From positions 1-35,640 of the forward strand of contig CANPYO010000014.1 of NCBI GenBank assembly GCA_947588645.1: a stretch of 35,640 nucleotides of DNA. Direction: 5' to 3'. The notes beneath the pieces were generated by a model that ran no database searches, was not told where the DNA came from, and saw only the letters and a program-made list of their open reading frames with translations. Of the stretch, positions 1 to 20,121 are shown in pieces (the stretch's first letter is position 1; the number at the start of each line of letters is the position of its first letter). The position numbers were made by a program, and so were the translations under genes. This DNA is from an uncultured Akkermansia sp. GTDB lineage: Bacteria; Verrucomicrobiota; Verrucomicrobiia; Verrucomicrobiales; Akkermansiaceae.

Positions 1-99
1 CCCGATGAAATCGGCAGTGAGGACGGTTTGACCTGAATCGAAATGAGCTAAGAGTAAGTAGTTGATATTGCTTTCAGCTTCGTTTGATTGTCATATTTT

Positions 100-948
100 A
101 TGAAAACGCCTTATAAGTATGTAGTTTGTTCCAAAACAGCATCGTCCATGAACAATGAACGATGCTGGGTCAATATCAGGATCTGCAAATTAGGGAAAGC
201 TGCTAAGGAAGGAGCAGATTACTGGTTTGTATTTAATATCGGAAAGAAAAATTTTGTTTATTCAATAAATGCATGTGAGTTGAAGAAAAAATTAGAAAAT
301 TCTGATGTTCCGTTACTTGGCAAAAATGAAAACAATGAAAGATTTTCTTTCTATGTGGAATATGCCGAGGGCAAGCTGTACGCGACAGTGTCAGCAAACG
401 ATGAGGACGTTTTAATAAAATTGGCTAAGCAAGCGGAATTCAATGGCTCCCTAAGAGAATGTGAAATAGCAGAGGGTGAAAATATAGCCACTTCGTTGGG
501 GCTTGAATTCATCCCATACGAGGATATGTCTCCTAAGGGTCAGGAAATCCATAACATTCAGAAACTGTCGTCACTACTTGCAAACTATGGCATTGAATGT
601 CTCCGTATCACTAACGATGAAGATGGGGCGGATGTCATGGCATATTACAATCCTGCAAGTGACAAAAAGAAGAATGGAAAGCCACTCACACTGCTGATTC
701 AGGTAAAGGGACGATATTCTGCAGCTAAAAAGTATACCGGGAAGAATTTATATATTGCGTTCCCGTGCGAAGAGGGGTGGTACCTCATACCACATGATAA
801 AATACTGGACGAGATGTTCAAAAAAGGGACATTAGACACAACGTCATGGAAAAAAGGTTCCTATAGTATAAAGAGCTTATCTAAAAAAGATAAGGTTAGA
901 TTTTCTCCTTACCTTATCAAATGGCCTGAGGGCAAACAAAATCAGTAG
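100..948 (+). CDS. PD-(D/E)XK nuclease-like protein
   Basis: The protein has 282 residues from the ATG at 100; a TTG at 88 in the same frame would add four. The C-terminal half looks like a PD-(D/E)XK fold: Asp178 in GADVMAYY, then a strand ending in QVKGR (201-205), then a strand and GWYLIP (226-231). This order is typical of the Holliday-resolvase/restriction-like superfamily, where Q can replace E in the ExK motif. Residues 1-140 have no domain I recognise. No Shine-Dalgarno sequence is clear at either start. The gene ends 14 bases before the next one, so co-transcription with the ankyrin genes is likely. Base composition is A+T-rich compared with DNA after 4.4 kb, which suggests acquisition. 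A role in defence or mobile-element biology is inference only; no methylase or partner enzyme is visible. Confidence 0.7.
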   Translation: MKTPYKYVVCSKTASSMNNERCWVNIRICKLGKAAKEGADYWFVFNIGKKNFVYSINACELKKKLENSDVPLLGKNENNERFSFYVEYAEGKLYATVSANDEDVLIKLAKQAEFNGSLRECEIAEGENIATSLGLEFIPYEDMSPKGQEIHNIQKLSSLLANYGIECLRITNDEDGADVMAYYNPASDKKKNGKPLTLLIQVKGRYSAAKKYTGKNLYIAFPCEEGWYLIPHDKILDEMFKKGTLDTTSWKKGSYSIKSLSKKDKVRFSPYLIKWPEGKQNQ

Positions 949-16747: not shown

Positions 16748-16819
16748 GGCCTCGTAGTTCAATGGATAGAACGGCCCTCTCCTAAAGGGCAAATACAGGT
16801 TCGATTCCTGTCGGGGCTA
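16748..16819 (+). tRNA. tRNA-Arg (anticodon CCT)
   Basis: The 72 bases fold into a full cloverleaf: acceptor GGCCTCG / CGGGGCT, D stem GTTC / GAAC, anticodon stem GCCCT / AGGGC with loop CTCCTAA (anticodon CCT at 16781-16783, reading AGG), T stem ACAGG / CCTGT with loop TTCGATT, discriminator A. CCA is not encoded. The acceptor has two G-U pairs, including position 1-72, which is unusual at the end of the helix. Confidence 0.95.
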
Positions 16820-16935: not shown

Positions 16936-17643
16936 TCATCTACCTCGATCTTCAGGAAAGTTGCGATAGCCGATGGGAAGAGGGGAATGACGGTCGAGCA
17001 GTGAACGGTCGTAGCGGCGAGTCGGGGGTGACATGTGACCGAGGGTATGTTCTGTGCGGAAGAAAAACTGGAGGTAGTAAGTTCCGGAGTAGCCGATTTG
17101 GGCGGCTTCGCGAATCATGCGAAGGATATCCGCCTCATCCAGGAGCGCCGGGTGCACAGTGGTACGTACCTCATGAGGAAGCTTGTACTGAAGCAAAAGA
17201 GCAAGAGACTTCCGGAATCGGTCGTAAAGTATTGAACCATCCGGCAACTTCCAAGAGCGATCGGAGGGCATTTTGTGATCGAGCGCGACATAATCGATGA
17301 GATGGTTTTGCAAGAGTGGTCGAAGAATCTGAGGATTGCTGCCGTTGGTATCAATTTTAATGAGGTAACCTAGCTCTTTAATCTGGGAGCAAAGTTCAAA
17401 AATATGGGGCACTAAAGTAGATTCTCCGCCGGAAAGCACGACAGCATCCAAAAAAGAACGACGTTCCTTGAGGAAAGCTATCTCGTCCACCACTCCGCGG
17501 TGCTGAGAAAGGGCAAGATCGGGGTTATAGCAGTAGGGACAACGCAAATTGCAGCCGTTGTACCAAAAAATACAGGCGGCCTTCTTGGGGTAATCCAGGA
17601 AGGTGAGCGGCGTGATATCCGAAGGATGAACAATGGGCGGCAT
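16936..17643 (-). CDS. nrdG: Anaerobic ribonucleotide reductase activating protein (radical SAM)
   Basis: The protein has 235 residues. CNLRCPYCYN gives the CxxxCxxC motif (Cys31, 35, 38) that holds the [4Fe-4S] cluster and S-adenosylmethionine. VVLSGGEST is the SAM-binding GGE motif, and the rest forms a partial TIM barrel. It is the activase that places the glycyl radical on class III NrdD. It is longer than E. coli NrdG (about 154) and resembles the NrdG2/pyruvate-formate-lyase-activase-like form. It is the third gene of the locus and lies behind a terminator-like hairpin. Confidence 0.9.
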   Translation of the reverse strand: MPPIVHPSDITPLTFLDYPKKAACIFWYNGCNLRCPYCYNPDLALSQHRGVVDEIAFLKERRSFLDAVVLSGGESTLVPHIFELCSQIKELGYLIKIDTNGSNPQILRPLLQNHLIDYVALDHKMPSDRSWKLPDGSILYDRFRKSLALLLQYKLPHEVRTTVHPALLDEADILRMIREAAQIGYSGTYYLQFFFRTEHTLGHMSPPTRRYDRSLLDRHSPLPIGYRNFPEDRGR

Positions 17644-17647
17644 GAAA

Positions 17648-17699
17648 GGAAAATAAAAACAAACCCCACGAAGCGGCTCAAGCAGCGCGAAACGTGGGG
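17648..17699 (-). terminator. Terminator or attenuator between the glycyl-radical gene and nrdG
   Basis: On the minus strand CCCCACG / CGTGGGG (7 bp, 22-base loop with an inner GC pairing) runs into TTTGTTTTTATTTT. The nrdG ATG is only about 20 bases from the stem, leaving no room for a promoter, so nrdG probably depends on read-through. Confidence 0.65.
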
Positions 17700-17704
17700 A
17701 AGGA

Positions 17705-17751
17705 AAGCGATCCCCCCGACTTCGCTCCCCGAATCAGAAGCGAAGGGGGGA
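17705..17751 (-). other. Strong stem-loop after the glycyl-radical gene
   Basis: CCCCC-CTTCGCT pairs with AGCGAAG-tc-GGGGG on the minus strand, giving about 12 base pairs with a short bulge. It has no T-run. It may protect the 3' end of the upstream message where transcription stops at the next hairpin. Confidence 0.55.
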
Positions 17752-17761
17752 ATCGGAAACA

Positions 17762-17974
17762 TCACTTCAGAATCGTGTCACCGCAGCAGCCGCAAGGCTC
17801 CACGAAGTGCTCACGCTCCTCGAACTCACCTTGCTTGCCGGCGTTGAACGTCTCCACGGGGCGATGGTATCCCATCACACGGGTATAGACGGTGCACTTG
17901 GAGCGCTCGCTCTCGTGCTCGGCCAGGATCTGCTCATCAGTTTTAACGACTGCTTTAATTTCTTCTTCTGTCAT
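17762..17974 (-). CDS. Separate glycyl-radical domain of class III ribonucleotide reductase
   Basis: The protein has 70 residues. Residues 27-57 (CTVYTRVMGYHRPV, then FNAGKQGEFEEREHF) match the C-terminal glycyl-radical segment normally fused to NrdD; Gly35 in RVMGY would carry the radical. The first 26 residues are acidic and not NrdD-like. The end is CGCCGD, so Cys27 and the three terminal Cys could bind metal. It starts with its own ATG 26 bases after the stop of the 706-residue NrdD, which itself ends naturally after the CPIC half of the zinc site. I infer a two-chain enzyme, comparable in principle to YfiD supplying a radical domain to pyruvate formate-lyase. Confidence 0.8.
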   Translation of the reverse strand: MTEEEIKAVVKTDEQILAEHESERSKCTVYTRVMGYHRPVETFNAGKQGEFEEREHFVEPCGCCGDTILK

Positions 17975-18000
17975 GGTTTATTTATGGGTTAGGAAATGCT

Positions 18001-20121
18001 TTAGAAAAGAGGCAATTCGGGCTGTTCTTCGGCGCGGGCCTTGGCGATGAGTTCTTCATCACAAATCGGGCAGTAGTCATGGCGCCCCTTGAGGTAGCCG
18101 TGCTTGTCGCACACGGAGAAAAGCGGCGTAACCGTAATATAAGGCATCTTGAAATTCGTAAGCACCTTGCGCACGATGTCACGGCAAGCCTCCGGAGAGG
18201 AAATAGCCTCGTTCATGTACATGTGGAATACCGTACCGCCGGTGTAGCAGCACTGGAGCTTGTCCTGCATGTGAAGAGCCTTGAAGAGATCACTTGTGTA
18301 ATTGGCTGGAAGCTGAGAACTGTTGGTGTAGTAACGGTGCCCCGGCGTGCCTGCCTGGATGATGTCCGGGAAGCGCTTGGCATCCTCACGAGCAAAACGG
18401 TGAGTAGTTCCTTCTGCCGGAGTAGCCTCCAAATTGTAGAGATTGCCGGTTTCTTCCTGATAGCTACGAATGCGCTCACGCATGAAATGCAGAACCTCCT
18501 CCGCAAAGGCAATTCCATCGGGAGTGGCGGTGTTCATGGTATCACCGGAAAAATTACGCAACATCTCATTGATGCCATTCAGTCCGATAGTCGAGAAGTG
18601 ATTGCGCAGGTGAGGCAGATAACGCTTCGTGTAGGGGTACAGACCGCGGTCATAGAGCGTATTGATAAACACGCGCTTCTTCTCCAGTGTACTCTTGGCC
18701 AGATCCATCAGCTCTGCCAGTTTACTGTAGAGCAAATTCCTATTGCCCTTGTACAGGTAACCGAGACGAGCCATATTGATGGTGACCACACCGATGGAGC
18801 CTGTCATTTCCGCTGAACCAAACAAGCCGCCGCCGCGCTTGAGCAATTCGCGCAGGTCCAGTTGCAAACGGCAGCACATGGAACGCACCGCATCCGGTTT
18901 GTACGCTTCTTCATCGATGACTTTGTTGCCATTCTCGTCGATCTTGTACTGAGAACCAACAAAGTTTTGGAAGTAGGAAGAGCCTATCTTAGCCGCATTG
19001 GCAAAGAGCAGAGGCACATTTTCGCCATCCCAGTCAAAATCCTCTGTGATATTCACGGTAGGGATGGGGAAGGTGAAGGGTTGCCCAGTGCTATCTCCCT
19101 CGGTAAGTACCTCGTAGAAAGCTTTTTGGATGACTGTCATCTCCGGCTGGAAATGCTTGTAGGTCATGCCTGTGAGTGACTCCGCCCCGCGTTCTTTGGC
19201 GAGAGCCGCGAGCTTTTCATCGTGCAGATTTTCGAAGATATGCGCGCCTCCGGAGAAAGGAGGCTGCTCGCGCAAGTCGCGCGGCACCGTCCAGTCAATG
19301 GTTACATTAGTGAATGGGCTTTGTCCCCAGCGGGACGGTACATTCAGGTTGTACACAAAGCTGCGAAGCGCTTTCTTCACTTCCCCATAAGGGAGCTGGT
19401 CGCGGAAGAGGTAGGGAGAAAGGTACGTATCAAAAGAACTGAAAGCTTGCGCTCCCGCCCACTCACTTTGCAAAATGCCCAAGAAATTGGCCATCTGTCC
19501 CAGAGCCTCACGGAAATGTTTGGGAGGACGGCTATTCACGCGACTACGCACGCCGTTAAATCCCTCGTTGAGTAAGTTGCGCAAGCTCCATCCGGCGCAG
19601 TAGCCGGTGAGGCAATCCAAGTCGTGAATGTGGTAATCGCCGTTGCGATGAGCAGCGCCCTCATCCGGAGAGTAGACCTGGTCAAGCCAGTAGTTGGCAA
19701 TCACCTTGCCGGCGGTGTTGTTCACGAGCCCGGCGTTGGAATAAGTCGTGTTGGAATTGGCCTTGATACGCCAGTCAATATTGCCGATGTACTCCTCGAT
19801 GGCCTGCTTGCAATCTACCCACGTGTTGCCCTGATACATGCCGGCAATCTGCTCGCGCTGCAGCTTGTGCAAAAAGCGGTACTTAATGAAGTTACGAGCG
19901 GTCTCAAACGCCCCGGCCTTCATCAGCTCACTCTCGATGAGATCCTGCACCTTTTCCACCGGCAGGTACTCCTCACCCTTGATGGCATCCAGCACACTTG
20001 TGTAAACCAGCGGATTATACTCCTCTTGGGATGCGTGAAAAGCTTTCTCGATGGCCTGCTGAATCTTGTAGGCCTCAAAACGCTCGCGCTTCCCATTGCG
20101 TTTGATGATTTGCTGCGGCAT
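18001..20121 (-). CDS. nrdD: Anaerobic ribonucleoside-triphosphate reductase, large part
   Basis: The protein has 706 residues. It reduces ribonucleotides to deoxyribonucleotides without oxygen. An ATP-cone covers about 1-95 (IIKRNGKRERFEAYKIQQAI). The barrel core includes YHIHDLDCLTGYCAGWSL, NVPSRWGQSPFTNVTIDWTV and the substrate-pocket stretch LQCCYTGGTVFHMYMNEA. The C-terminus has Cys-x-x-His (CDKHGY) and CPIC, parts of the zinc site, then ends ELPLF without the RVxGY glycyl-radical motif, which is on the next gene. Length and core are otherwise complete, so this is a split, not a decayed, enzyme. Upstream lie a promoter and two NrdR-type boxes. Confidence 0.93.
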   Translation of the reverse strand: MPQQIIKRNGKRERFEAYKIQQAIEKAFHASQEEYNPLVYTSVLDAIKGEEYLPVEKVQDLIESELMKAGAFETARNFIKYRFLHKLQREQIAGMYQGNTWVDCKQAIEEYIGNIDWRIKANSNTTYSNAGLVNNTAGKVIANYWLDQVYSPDEGAAHRNGDYHIHDLDCLTGYCAGWSLRNLLNEGFNGVRSRVNSRPPKHFREALGQMANFLGILQSEWAGAQAFSSFDTYLSPYLFRDQLPYGEVKKALRSFVYNLNVPSRWGQSPFTNVTIDWTVPRDLREQPPFSGGAHIFENLHDEKLAALAKERGAESLTGMTYKHFQPEMTVIQKAFYEVLTEGDSTGQPFTFPIPTVNITEDFDWDGENVPLLFANAAKIGSSYFQNFVGSQYKIDENGNKVIDEEAYKPDAVRSMCCRLQLDLRELLKRGGGLFGSAEMTGSIGVVTINMARLGYLYKGNRNLLYSKLAELMDLAKSTLEKKRVFINTLYDRGLYPYTKRYLPHLRNHFSTIGLNGINEMLRNFSGDTMNTATPDGIAFAEEVLHFMRERIRSYQEETGNLYNLEATPAEGTTHRFAREDAKRFPDIIQAGTPGHRYYTNSSQLPANYTSDLFKALHMQDKLQCCYTGGTVFHMYMNEAISSPEACRDIVRKVLTNFKMPYITVTPLFSVCDKHGYLKGRHDYCPICDEELIAKARAEEQPELPLF

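Follow-up and report, generated by a model that had tools for sequence, protein, structure and literature searches.

Class III ribonucleotide reductase genes with a separately encoded glycyl-radical domain in Akkermansia and other bacteria

Described class III enzymes and other proteins in pieces

Class III ribonucleotide reductases of the NrdD family (PF13597, NF006126/PRK08270) have been described as fused enzymes, such as those in the structures 8p2s, 4coi and 1h7b. They possess a barrel fold, a zinc knuckle and a radical-glycine motif, are accompanied by an adjacent nrdG, and contain an ATP-cone, which is a common, though not a universal, feature of this class. A locus of an uncultured Akkermansia sp., a gut bacterium, shares these features. 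It lies in a stretch of 35,640 nucleotides (contig CANPYO010000014.1 of assembly GCA_947588645.1), which was analysed as a whole and is called the window below. In contrast to the fused enzymes, its radical glycine is located on a separate chain of 70 aa, and its large chain ends in an extra tail that follows the zinc knuckle.

Several described systems resemble this arrangement in part. The MCCR motif and a zinc motif of the C/H/C/C type are shared with the T. maritima subclass NrdDh, group NrdDh4 (PMC4493059), which is a likeness and does not imply membership; the available part of that account makes no mention of a separate radical domain. YfiD/GrcA and Y06I of phage T4 are likewise small, free-standing glycyl-radical proteins, and such proteins are also phage-borne (PMC8683613). 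However, they repair an enzyme with a radical domain of its own, whereas the large chain in the window has none. YfiD and Y06I are the only validated spare parts, but spare parts for further glycyl-radical enzymes are considered possible (PMC8683613). The nrdD genes of phages may be in pieces as well, as they can be split by introns or inteins (PMC3653736), but in the window there is no intervening element, and each piece has a start of its own and is conserved. A split by an intron or intein, as in these phages, was rejected, because only 26 bases lie between the pieces. Class II ribonucleotide reductases contain no glycyl radical. The enzyme of this class in Pseudomonas aeruginosa has also been termed split (PMC4520616).

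In the literature searched, mainly open-access papers, a class III radical domain on a chain of its own was found nowhere, and the accessible portions describe the radical glycine within the NrdD chain. The original prediction for this locus, made from the sequence alone, had stated that this glycine is normally in the same chain, which agrees with these descriptions but not with the wide distribution of the split reported below. The split is undescribed in the open literature searched, although the work on NrdD of C. necator (Siedow 1999) may touch on it. NrdDG of C. necator H16 was reported to be essential for complete denitrification (PMC2864759, citing Siedow 1999), and its locus proved to be split.

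The locus in Akkermansia and the distribution of the split

On the minus strand of the window, the ORF for the large chain is followed, after a short gap, by that for the small chain and then, after a spacer, by that for the activase (Table 1). The original prediction had described a NrdD that lacks the RVxGY motif and a small gene, directly downstream, that carries it, and both the ORFs and the coverage of PF13597 agree with this description. The large chain matches positions 2-531 of the 562 positions of this profile (E 5.6e-158; 527.5 bits, cut-off 26.2) and the small chain positions 530-562 (E 8.8e-08; 31.7 bits, cut-off 26.2), so that the two combined span it except for position 1. The large chain also matches NF006126 (1041.7 bits, cut-off 548), has an N-terminal ATP-cone (PF03477; E 4.6e-17, 62.8 bits) and contains the MCCR motif (RSMCCRL). 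Its C-terminal end reads CPICDEELIAKARAEEQPELPLF. The RVxGY motif is absent from it and is found only on the 70-aa chain, the ORF of which (17762-17974, minus strand) carries TRVMGYHRPVETFNAGKQGEF. Judged from these motifs, the large chain by itself does not qualify as a standard NrdD, and the pair jointly has the radical-glycine feature.

Table 1. Features of the split nrdD locus and its surroundings (positions in the window)
Feature	Position	Strand	Length and evidence
Large chain, NrdD without radical domain	18001..20121	-	706 aa; PF13597 2-531/562, PF03477, NF006126
Gap between large-gene stop and small-gene ATG	17975..18000	-	26 bases
Small chain, free-standing glycyl-radical domain	17762..17974	-	70 aa; PF13597 530-562
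Predicted radical glycine codon, Gly35 of small chain (RVMGY)	17870..17872	-	invariant G35
Probable complete zinc site, large-chain codons 671-687 (C671, H674, C684, C687; CxxHx9CxxC)	18061..18111	-	sequence
Spacer between small gene and nrdG	17644..17761	-	118 bases; two strong stem-loops
nrdG2, radical-SAM activase	16936..17643	-	235 aa; TIGR02495, PF04055

The activase, encoded by the next gene downstream of the small gene, was called as NrdG2 (TIGR02495; 169.8 bits, cut-off 131.15). The spacer in front of it folds strongly (17640-17765; -52.8 kcal/mol, z -4.66, with none of 200 shuffles as low), and the second of its stem-loops is followed by a T-rich stretch. A consensus terminator scan, the outcome of which was near expectation, did not flag the spacer (17644-17761). 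The stem-loops may mark the end of a transcript or serve in attenuation ahead of nrdG. A tRNA gene (Rfam match) is located at 16748-16819 on the plus strand.

Whether the split is conserved had been left by the original prediction to related genomes, and the close relatives are indeed unfused. Other uncultured Akkermansia bins contain near-identical loci (98% protein identity), and both pieces are present in 35 of 36 relatives in the genus, the remaining one (G012) having a partial large piece only. The small gene was matched in 73 of 76 Akkermansia genomes; none was found in G012, G374 and G378 (71%, 95% and 97% complete, respectively), which is unexplained. All 76 places of the small gene in the genus are open frames of 52-128 aa, none of them fused, and G002, G013 and G021 contain two small genes each. 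Two scaffolds of A. glycaniphila (L080, L081) each yielded the pair, and the scores were equal; this may reflect a duplication or an assembly repeat.

In a broader comparison of 110 rows, i.e., the window and loci L003-L111, which represent 76 distinct pairs of large-chain tail and small chain as some genomes are in two collections, a separate ORF carries the radical motif in 108; of the other two, L003 is fused and L077 lies on a contig that ends too early. Rows with a split include Sulfurospirillum, Sulfurimonas, Algoriphagus, Marivirga, Parapedobacter and Shiella, and the split is found in Akkermansia, Campylobacterota, Bacteroidota and Proteobacteria. All 20 other whole genomes reached via loci of the window's kind (type A, see below) contain large and small pieces only and no fused copy. 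Plasmid records extend the split to alpha-, beta- and gammaproteobacteria. The region was opened in 12 of the 29 matched plasmid records; the small gene, called from the annotation or by a motif scan, is separate in nine and fused in three, i.e., those of Actinomyces, Geoalkalibacter and Acidiphilium. The large gene of Thiothrix (L289) was matched as two pieces. The labels 'ribonucleoside triphosphate reductase' and 'nrdD' are found beside an activase in RefSeq records of Cupriavidus, Sulfuricurvum, Azospira and Bradyrhizobium. Thus, RefSeq names both genes, and the pair has not gone unseen by annotation.

Over 390 pairs among 46 distinct sequences, chosen by a large-gene pS of 0.05-0.5, the ratio dN/dS was approximately 0.10 for the core of the small gene (40 codons), a value biased low as this core was picked by its motif; the 3' part of the large gene gave approximately 0.08. 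These ratios indicate that purifying selection acts on both genes.

These data bear on two ways in which a single NrdD chain could underlie the two ORFs. A fused gene may have been broken by a frameshift or by an assembly error and would then be decayed or misread, and the two halves of the profile do adjoin, as expected after a frameshift. However, the ORFs are separate in nearly all rows, including a complete genome (L088), and, as already argued in the original prediction against a simple frameshift, both sides carry extra residues. Moreover, the frame relation varies, both genes are under purifying selection, and there is no intact second nrdD. Since the split is conserved across assemblies, this explanation is refuted, and we consider its probability close to nil. 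Alternatively, a programmed frameshift or read-through of a stop codon could join the ORFs during translation. In favour of this possibility, some loci (L046, L047 and L020) have both ORFs in the same frame, separated by just one TAA, and in three others (L088, L090 and L092) the listed start of the small gene coincides with the large gene's end. Yet, among the 108 rows, the frame relation is 0 in 25, 1 in 38 and 2 in 45, and because it varies, no fixed programmed frameshift joins the ORFs. Furthermore, one to four stops lie between the ORFs in the in-frame loci, and a small gene of the same kind occurs alone in phage records. Such joining is therefore very unlikely. As judged from the genomes compared, the split is conserved and not accidental.

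The probable two-chain enzyme, its zinc site and its history

No other match to PF13597 was found in the genome of the window (95.92% complete), i.e., no second complete nrdD, which had been named in the original prediction as a possible sign that the split gene has decayed. Matches to PF02867 and PF00268, which would point to class II or class I reductases, were also not found in this genome. Because no other match to any of these three models was detected, the split pair is probably its sole ribonucleotide reductase. Among 23 sampled Akkermansia genomes, PF02867 is absent in eight (G000, G001, G003, G008, G014, G016, G019 and G020) and present in the other 15. In seven of the eight (all but G000), which are 94-99% complete, a large subunit of class I or II was undetected.

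The small protein could be a spare part only, of the YfiD/GrcA type, with a large enzyme that works without it. Its size, its free-standing radical domain and the existence of phage copies are indeed features of YfiD and Y06I (PMC8683613). Against this, a radical motif is missing from the large chain, and the genome yields neither a further nrdD nor a class I or II match. Also, at E<=1, the small chain matched only PF13597 in Pfam and only five NrdD models in NCBIfam, and no model of the GrcA or pyruvate formate-lyase glycyl-radical family in either. A search of PDB sequences with the small chain gave a single match, to an unrelated hydrolase (E 0.57). A role as spare part only is, thus, highly improbable. 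As the large chain lacks the glycine motif and no other reductase was found in the genome, an obligate subunit is the simplest reading, and the pair very probably constitutes an obligate two-chain class III (anaerobic) ribonucleotide reductase.

In this two-chain enzyme, the ATP-cone for allosteric control, the barrel for catalysis and the zinc knuckle belong to the 706-aa chain, and the 70-aa chain constitutes the glycyl-radical domain. By analogy with the family, the small chain would bind to the large chain, NrdG with S-adenosylmethionine would generate the radical on Gly35 of the small chain, and the radical would be passed on to a cysteine of the large chain and then to the ribonucleotide. 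The zinc knuckle of NrdD has been conjectured to contact NrdG (PMC4493059); since the large chain keeps this knuckle, the small chain probably docks beside it. Oxygen cuts glycyl-radical chains at the radical (PMC3019208, PMC2795772). Because the radical would reside on a separate 70-aa piece, cleavage at Gly35 would cost the small chain only. Going one step further, this chain might be exchanged after oxygen damage for a fresh one, either made by the host or supplied by a phage.

The original prediction had also suggested that the zinc site may be assembled from both chains. For type A, the window's kind of split, this was not borne out: 117 of 118 large chains keep the whole C..HG...CPxC pattern, the exception being L077, where the contig ends. 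In NrdD of T. maritima, zinc is bound by CxxxHx6CxxC (PMC4493059), and the zinc ligands at the locus studied here, as predicted from the sequence pattern, are all on the large chain and not shared between the chains. A scan of the phylum for splits revealed, among the matches listed, a type B in further families of this phylum (L112-L135, L137 and L138). The fourth cysteine is missing from 25 of 26 type-B large chains (L116 has CPLEC), and all 26 small chains have M-x(1-3)-C, e.g., MAKC, just ahead of the motif. A fused relative, L150, reads CPRCGKKTEVYSRV, and the type-B break therefore lies inside the zinc CPxC. Hence, the idea of a two-chain zinc site does fit type B. A third split, type C (L140 and L141), belongs to a distant NrdD branch with a motif of the RRITGYLVG type.

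Structure models were made of natural in-frame loci with a single TAA between the large and the small gene, the intergenic bases being used as linker. The AlphaFold model of type A (L046) had a mean pLDDT of 85.8 and a pTM of 0.80, with blocks of the small part from residue 721 to 770 at 83-95, and that of type B (L133) had a pLDDT of 86.3 and a pTM of 0.79. With VIA-align, L046 was aligned to 8p2s_B with Z 34.1 and 2.6 Å over 554 residues (83..773 to 85..735) and to T4 1h7b with Z 32.7 and 2.3 Å over 481 residues (124..757 to 26..587). L133 was aligned to 8p2s_B with 2.4 Å over 554 residues, and its alignment to T4 1h7b ended with model residue 693 opposite T4 residue 587. In both models, these alignments to fused class III structures reach the small part. 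Provided that no gap lies among the last seven aligned residues, Gly750 of L046 and Gly686 of L133 are opposite position 580 of T4 NrdD, which is its radical glycine (PMC4493059). Comparison with 9d3x, 9dau and 9dca gave no rigid match (rmsd 9-15 Å). The models support the view that the loop of the small chain docks at the site in the barrel which the radical loop occupies in fused enzymes; they represent a linked chain, with fused homologues included in the alignment, and do not by themselves prove binding of free chains.

In a tree of 67 rows, cut ahead of the zinc knuckle where its pattern was found, types A and B are sisters (97/89), whilst type C stands apart beside fused relatives. L150, L262, L273, L267, L268, L277 and L147, for which the filter found no body, were left out. 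The tree forces at least four changes between split and fused, and parsimony gives five. A single fission before the divergence of A and B, followed by three refusions, with one further fission for type C, would fit this tree; alternatively, A and B, which differ in their break points, may have arisen by separate fissions. Of the three fused rows inside the A/B group, two are long branches (L283 and L285), and their place inside type A is unsure; the third, L136, is partial (421 aa), its genome match contains an inner stop, and its fusion is tentative. L136, which is within the type-B group, reads 'CP-MAQC' internally, as if the start methionine of a small gene had been fused back in. In L130, two small radical-domain genes (RVCGY and RVVGY) are found in tandem behind one large chain.

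Small genes in phages and on plasmids

In the bacterial loci of the broader comparison, the large chain is encoded directly upstream of the small gene. A second small gene (positions 1961-2116 of L143, on contig G002:C105) was found in the Akkermansia bin G002 on a 79-kb phage-like contig, where it directly follows a phage portal gene (phrog_21, E 1.1e-44); no large chain was found on this contig in the PF13597 search. The small proteins of the window and of this contig both match phrog_4132, which is of 'unknown function'. A scan of viral contigs gave 223 relatives, of which 80 were kept, and a second search added three loci, one of which (L232) is on the same contig as L191. An ORF with the motif is present in 81 of 82 checked viral loci (L152-L233). 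Whole viral records were inspected for 50 of 83 loci; 45 contain the small piece only, four also a large piece, and one gave no match.

Orphan small genes annotated as nrdD are also present on plasmids pALVIN01 of Allochromatium vinosum (L291, 6998-7207), where a CHAP-domain gene adjoins, and pAt1 of A. tepidum (L292, 2460-2645). Neither plasmid is among the 29 plasmid records with a match to the large chain. Isolated phages (INPHARED) gave no convincing free-standing copy; the matches were weak, and several were on annotated reductases. Two of them, H4 and H5 (E 0.2-0.3), adjoin holin or terminase genes; H3 and H8/H11 are on unannotated records. The claim that phages carry the small gene is therefore based on contigs from IMG/VR, a single Akkermansia bin and two plasmids.

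Possibly, the orphan genes have another role, or they are host fragments at the edges of prophages. IMG/VR contigs include prophages, the edges of which may hold host genes; in 16 of the 81 loci there is less than 2.3 kb upstream, so that a large gene may have been cut off, and the isolated phages provide no convincing case. On the other hand, at least 2.3 kb is available upstream in 65 of the 81 loci (L191 and L232, one contig, being counted separately), and the large chain is missing there in 61, the exceptions being L182, L189, L196 and L222. Furthermore, R, MGY, N and GK are invariant among the 41 full-length sequences of 53 distinct cores, an invariance partly imposed by the search patterns, and six of seven examined loci have portal, head, tail, holin or endolysin genes of phages as neighbours. 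Two of ten flanking proteins (one each of L180 and L217) lack a PHROG match. Taken together, another role or an origin as host fragment seems rather unlikely, but it has to be taken seriously.

The tandem duplicate and the orphan copies in phages and on plasmids make replacement of the small chain after damage plausible. Tentatively, and with considerable doubt about the proposal as a whole, class III reductases with a detachable radical subunit may be widespread, the old 700-aa body receiving a new chain of 50-70 aa after oxygen has cut the previous one and being reactivated by NrdG, with a shared zinc site in type B; phages and plasmids would then carry the small gene alone, sustaining the DNA-precursor enzyme of the host during infection. 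If true, pyruvate formate-lyase would no longer be the only glycyl-radical enzyme with a spare part. With the radical domain in trans, the question of spare parts becomes testable, and the two components offer material for studies on radical transfer. Here, the oxygen-labile piece of an essential enzyme has become separate in hosts that possibly lack any further reductase, and it is this piece that phages carry on its own. Annotation that expects the radical glycine in the same chain would misjudge split enzymes.

One of the viral contigs, L153, is tied loosely to Akkermansia by its endolysin. Relatives of this endolysin (E<=0.001) were found in 29 of 76 Akkermansia genomes, some of them weak and the best with 63% identity, and there is one on the phage-like contig of G002 (48% identity). 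The small chain encoded by L153 is 81% identical to that of the window over 47 residues.
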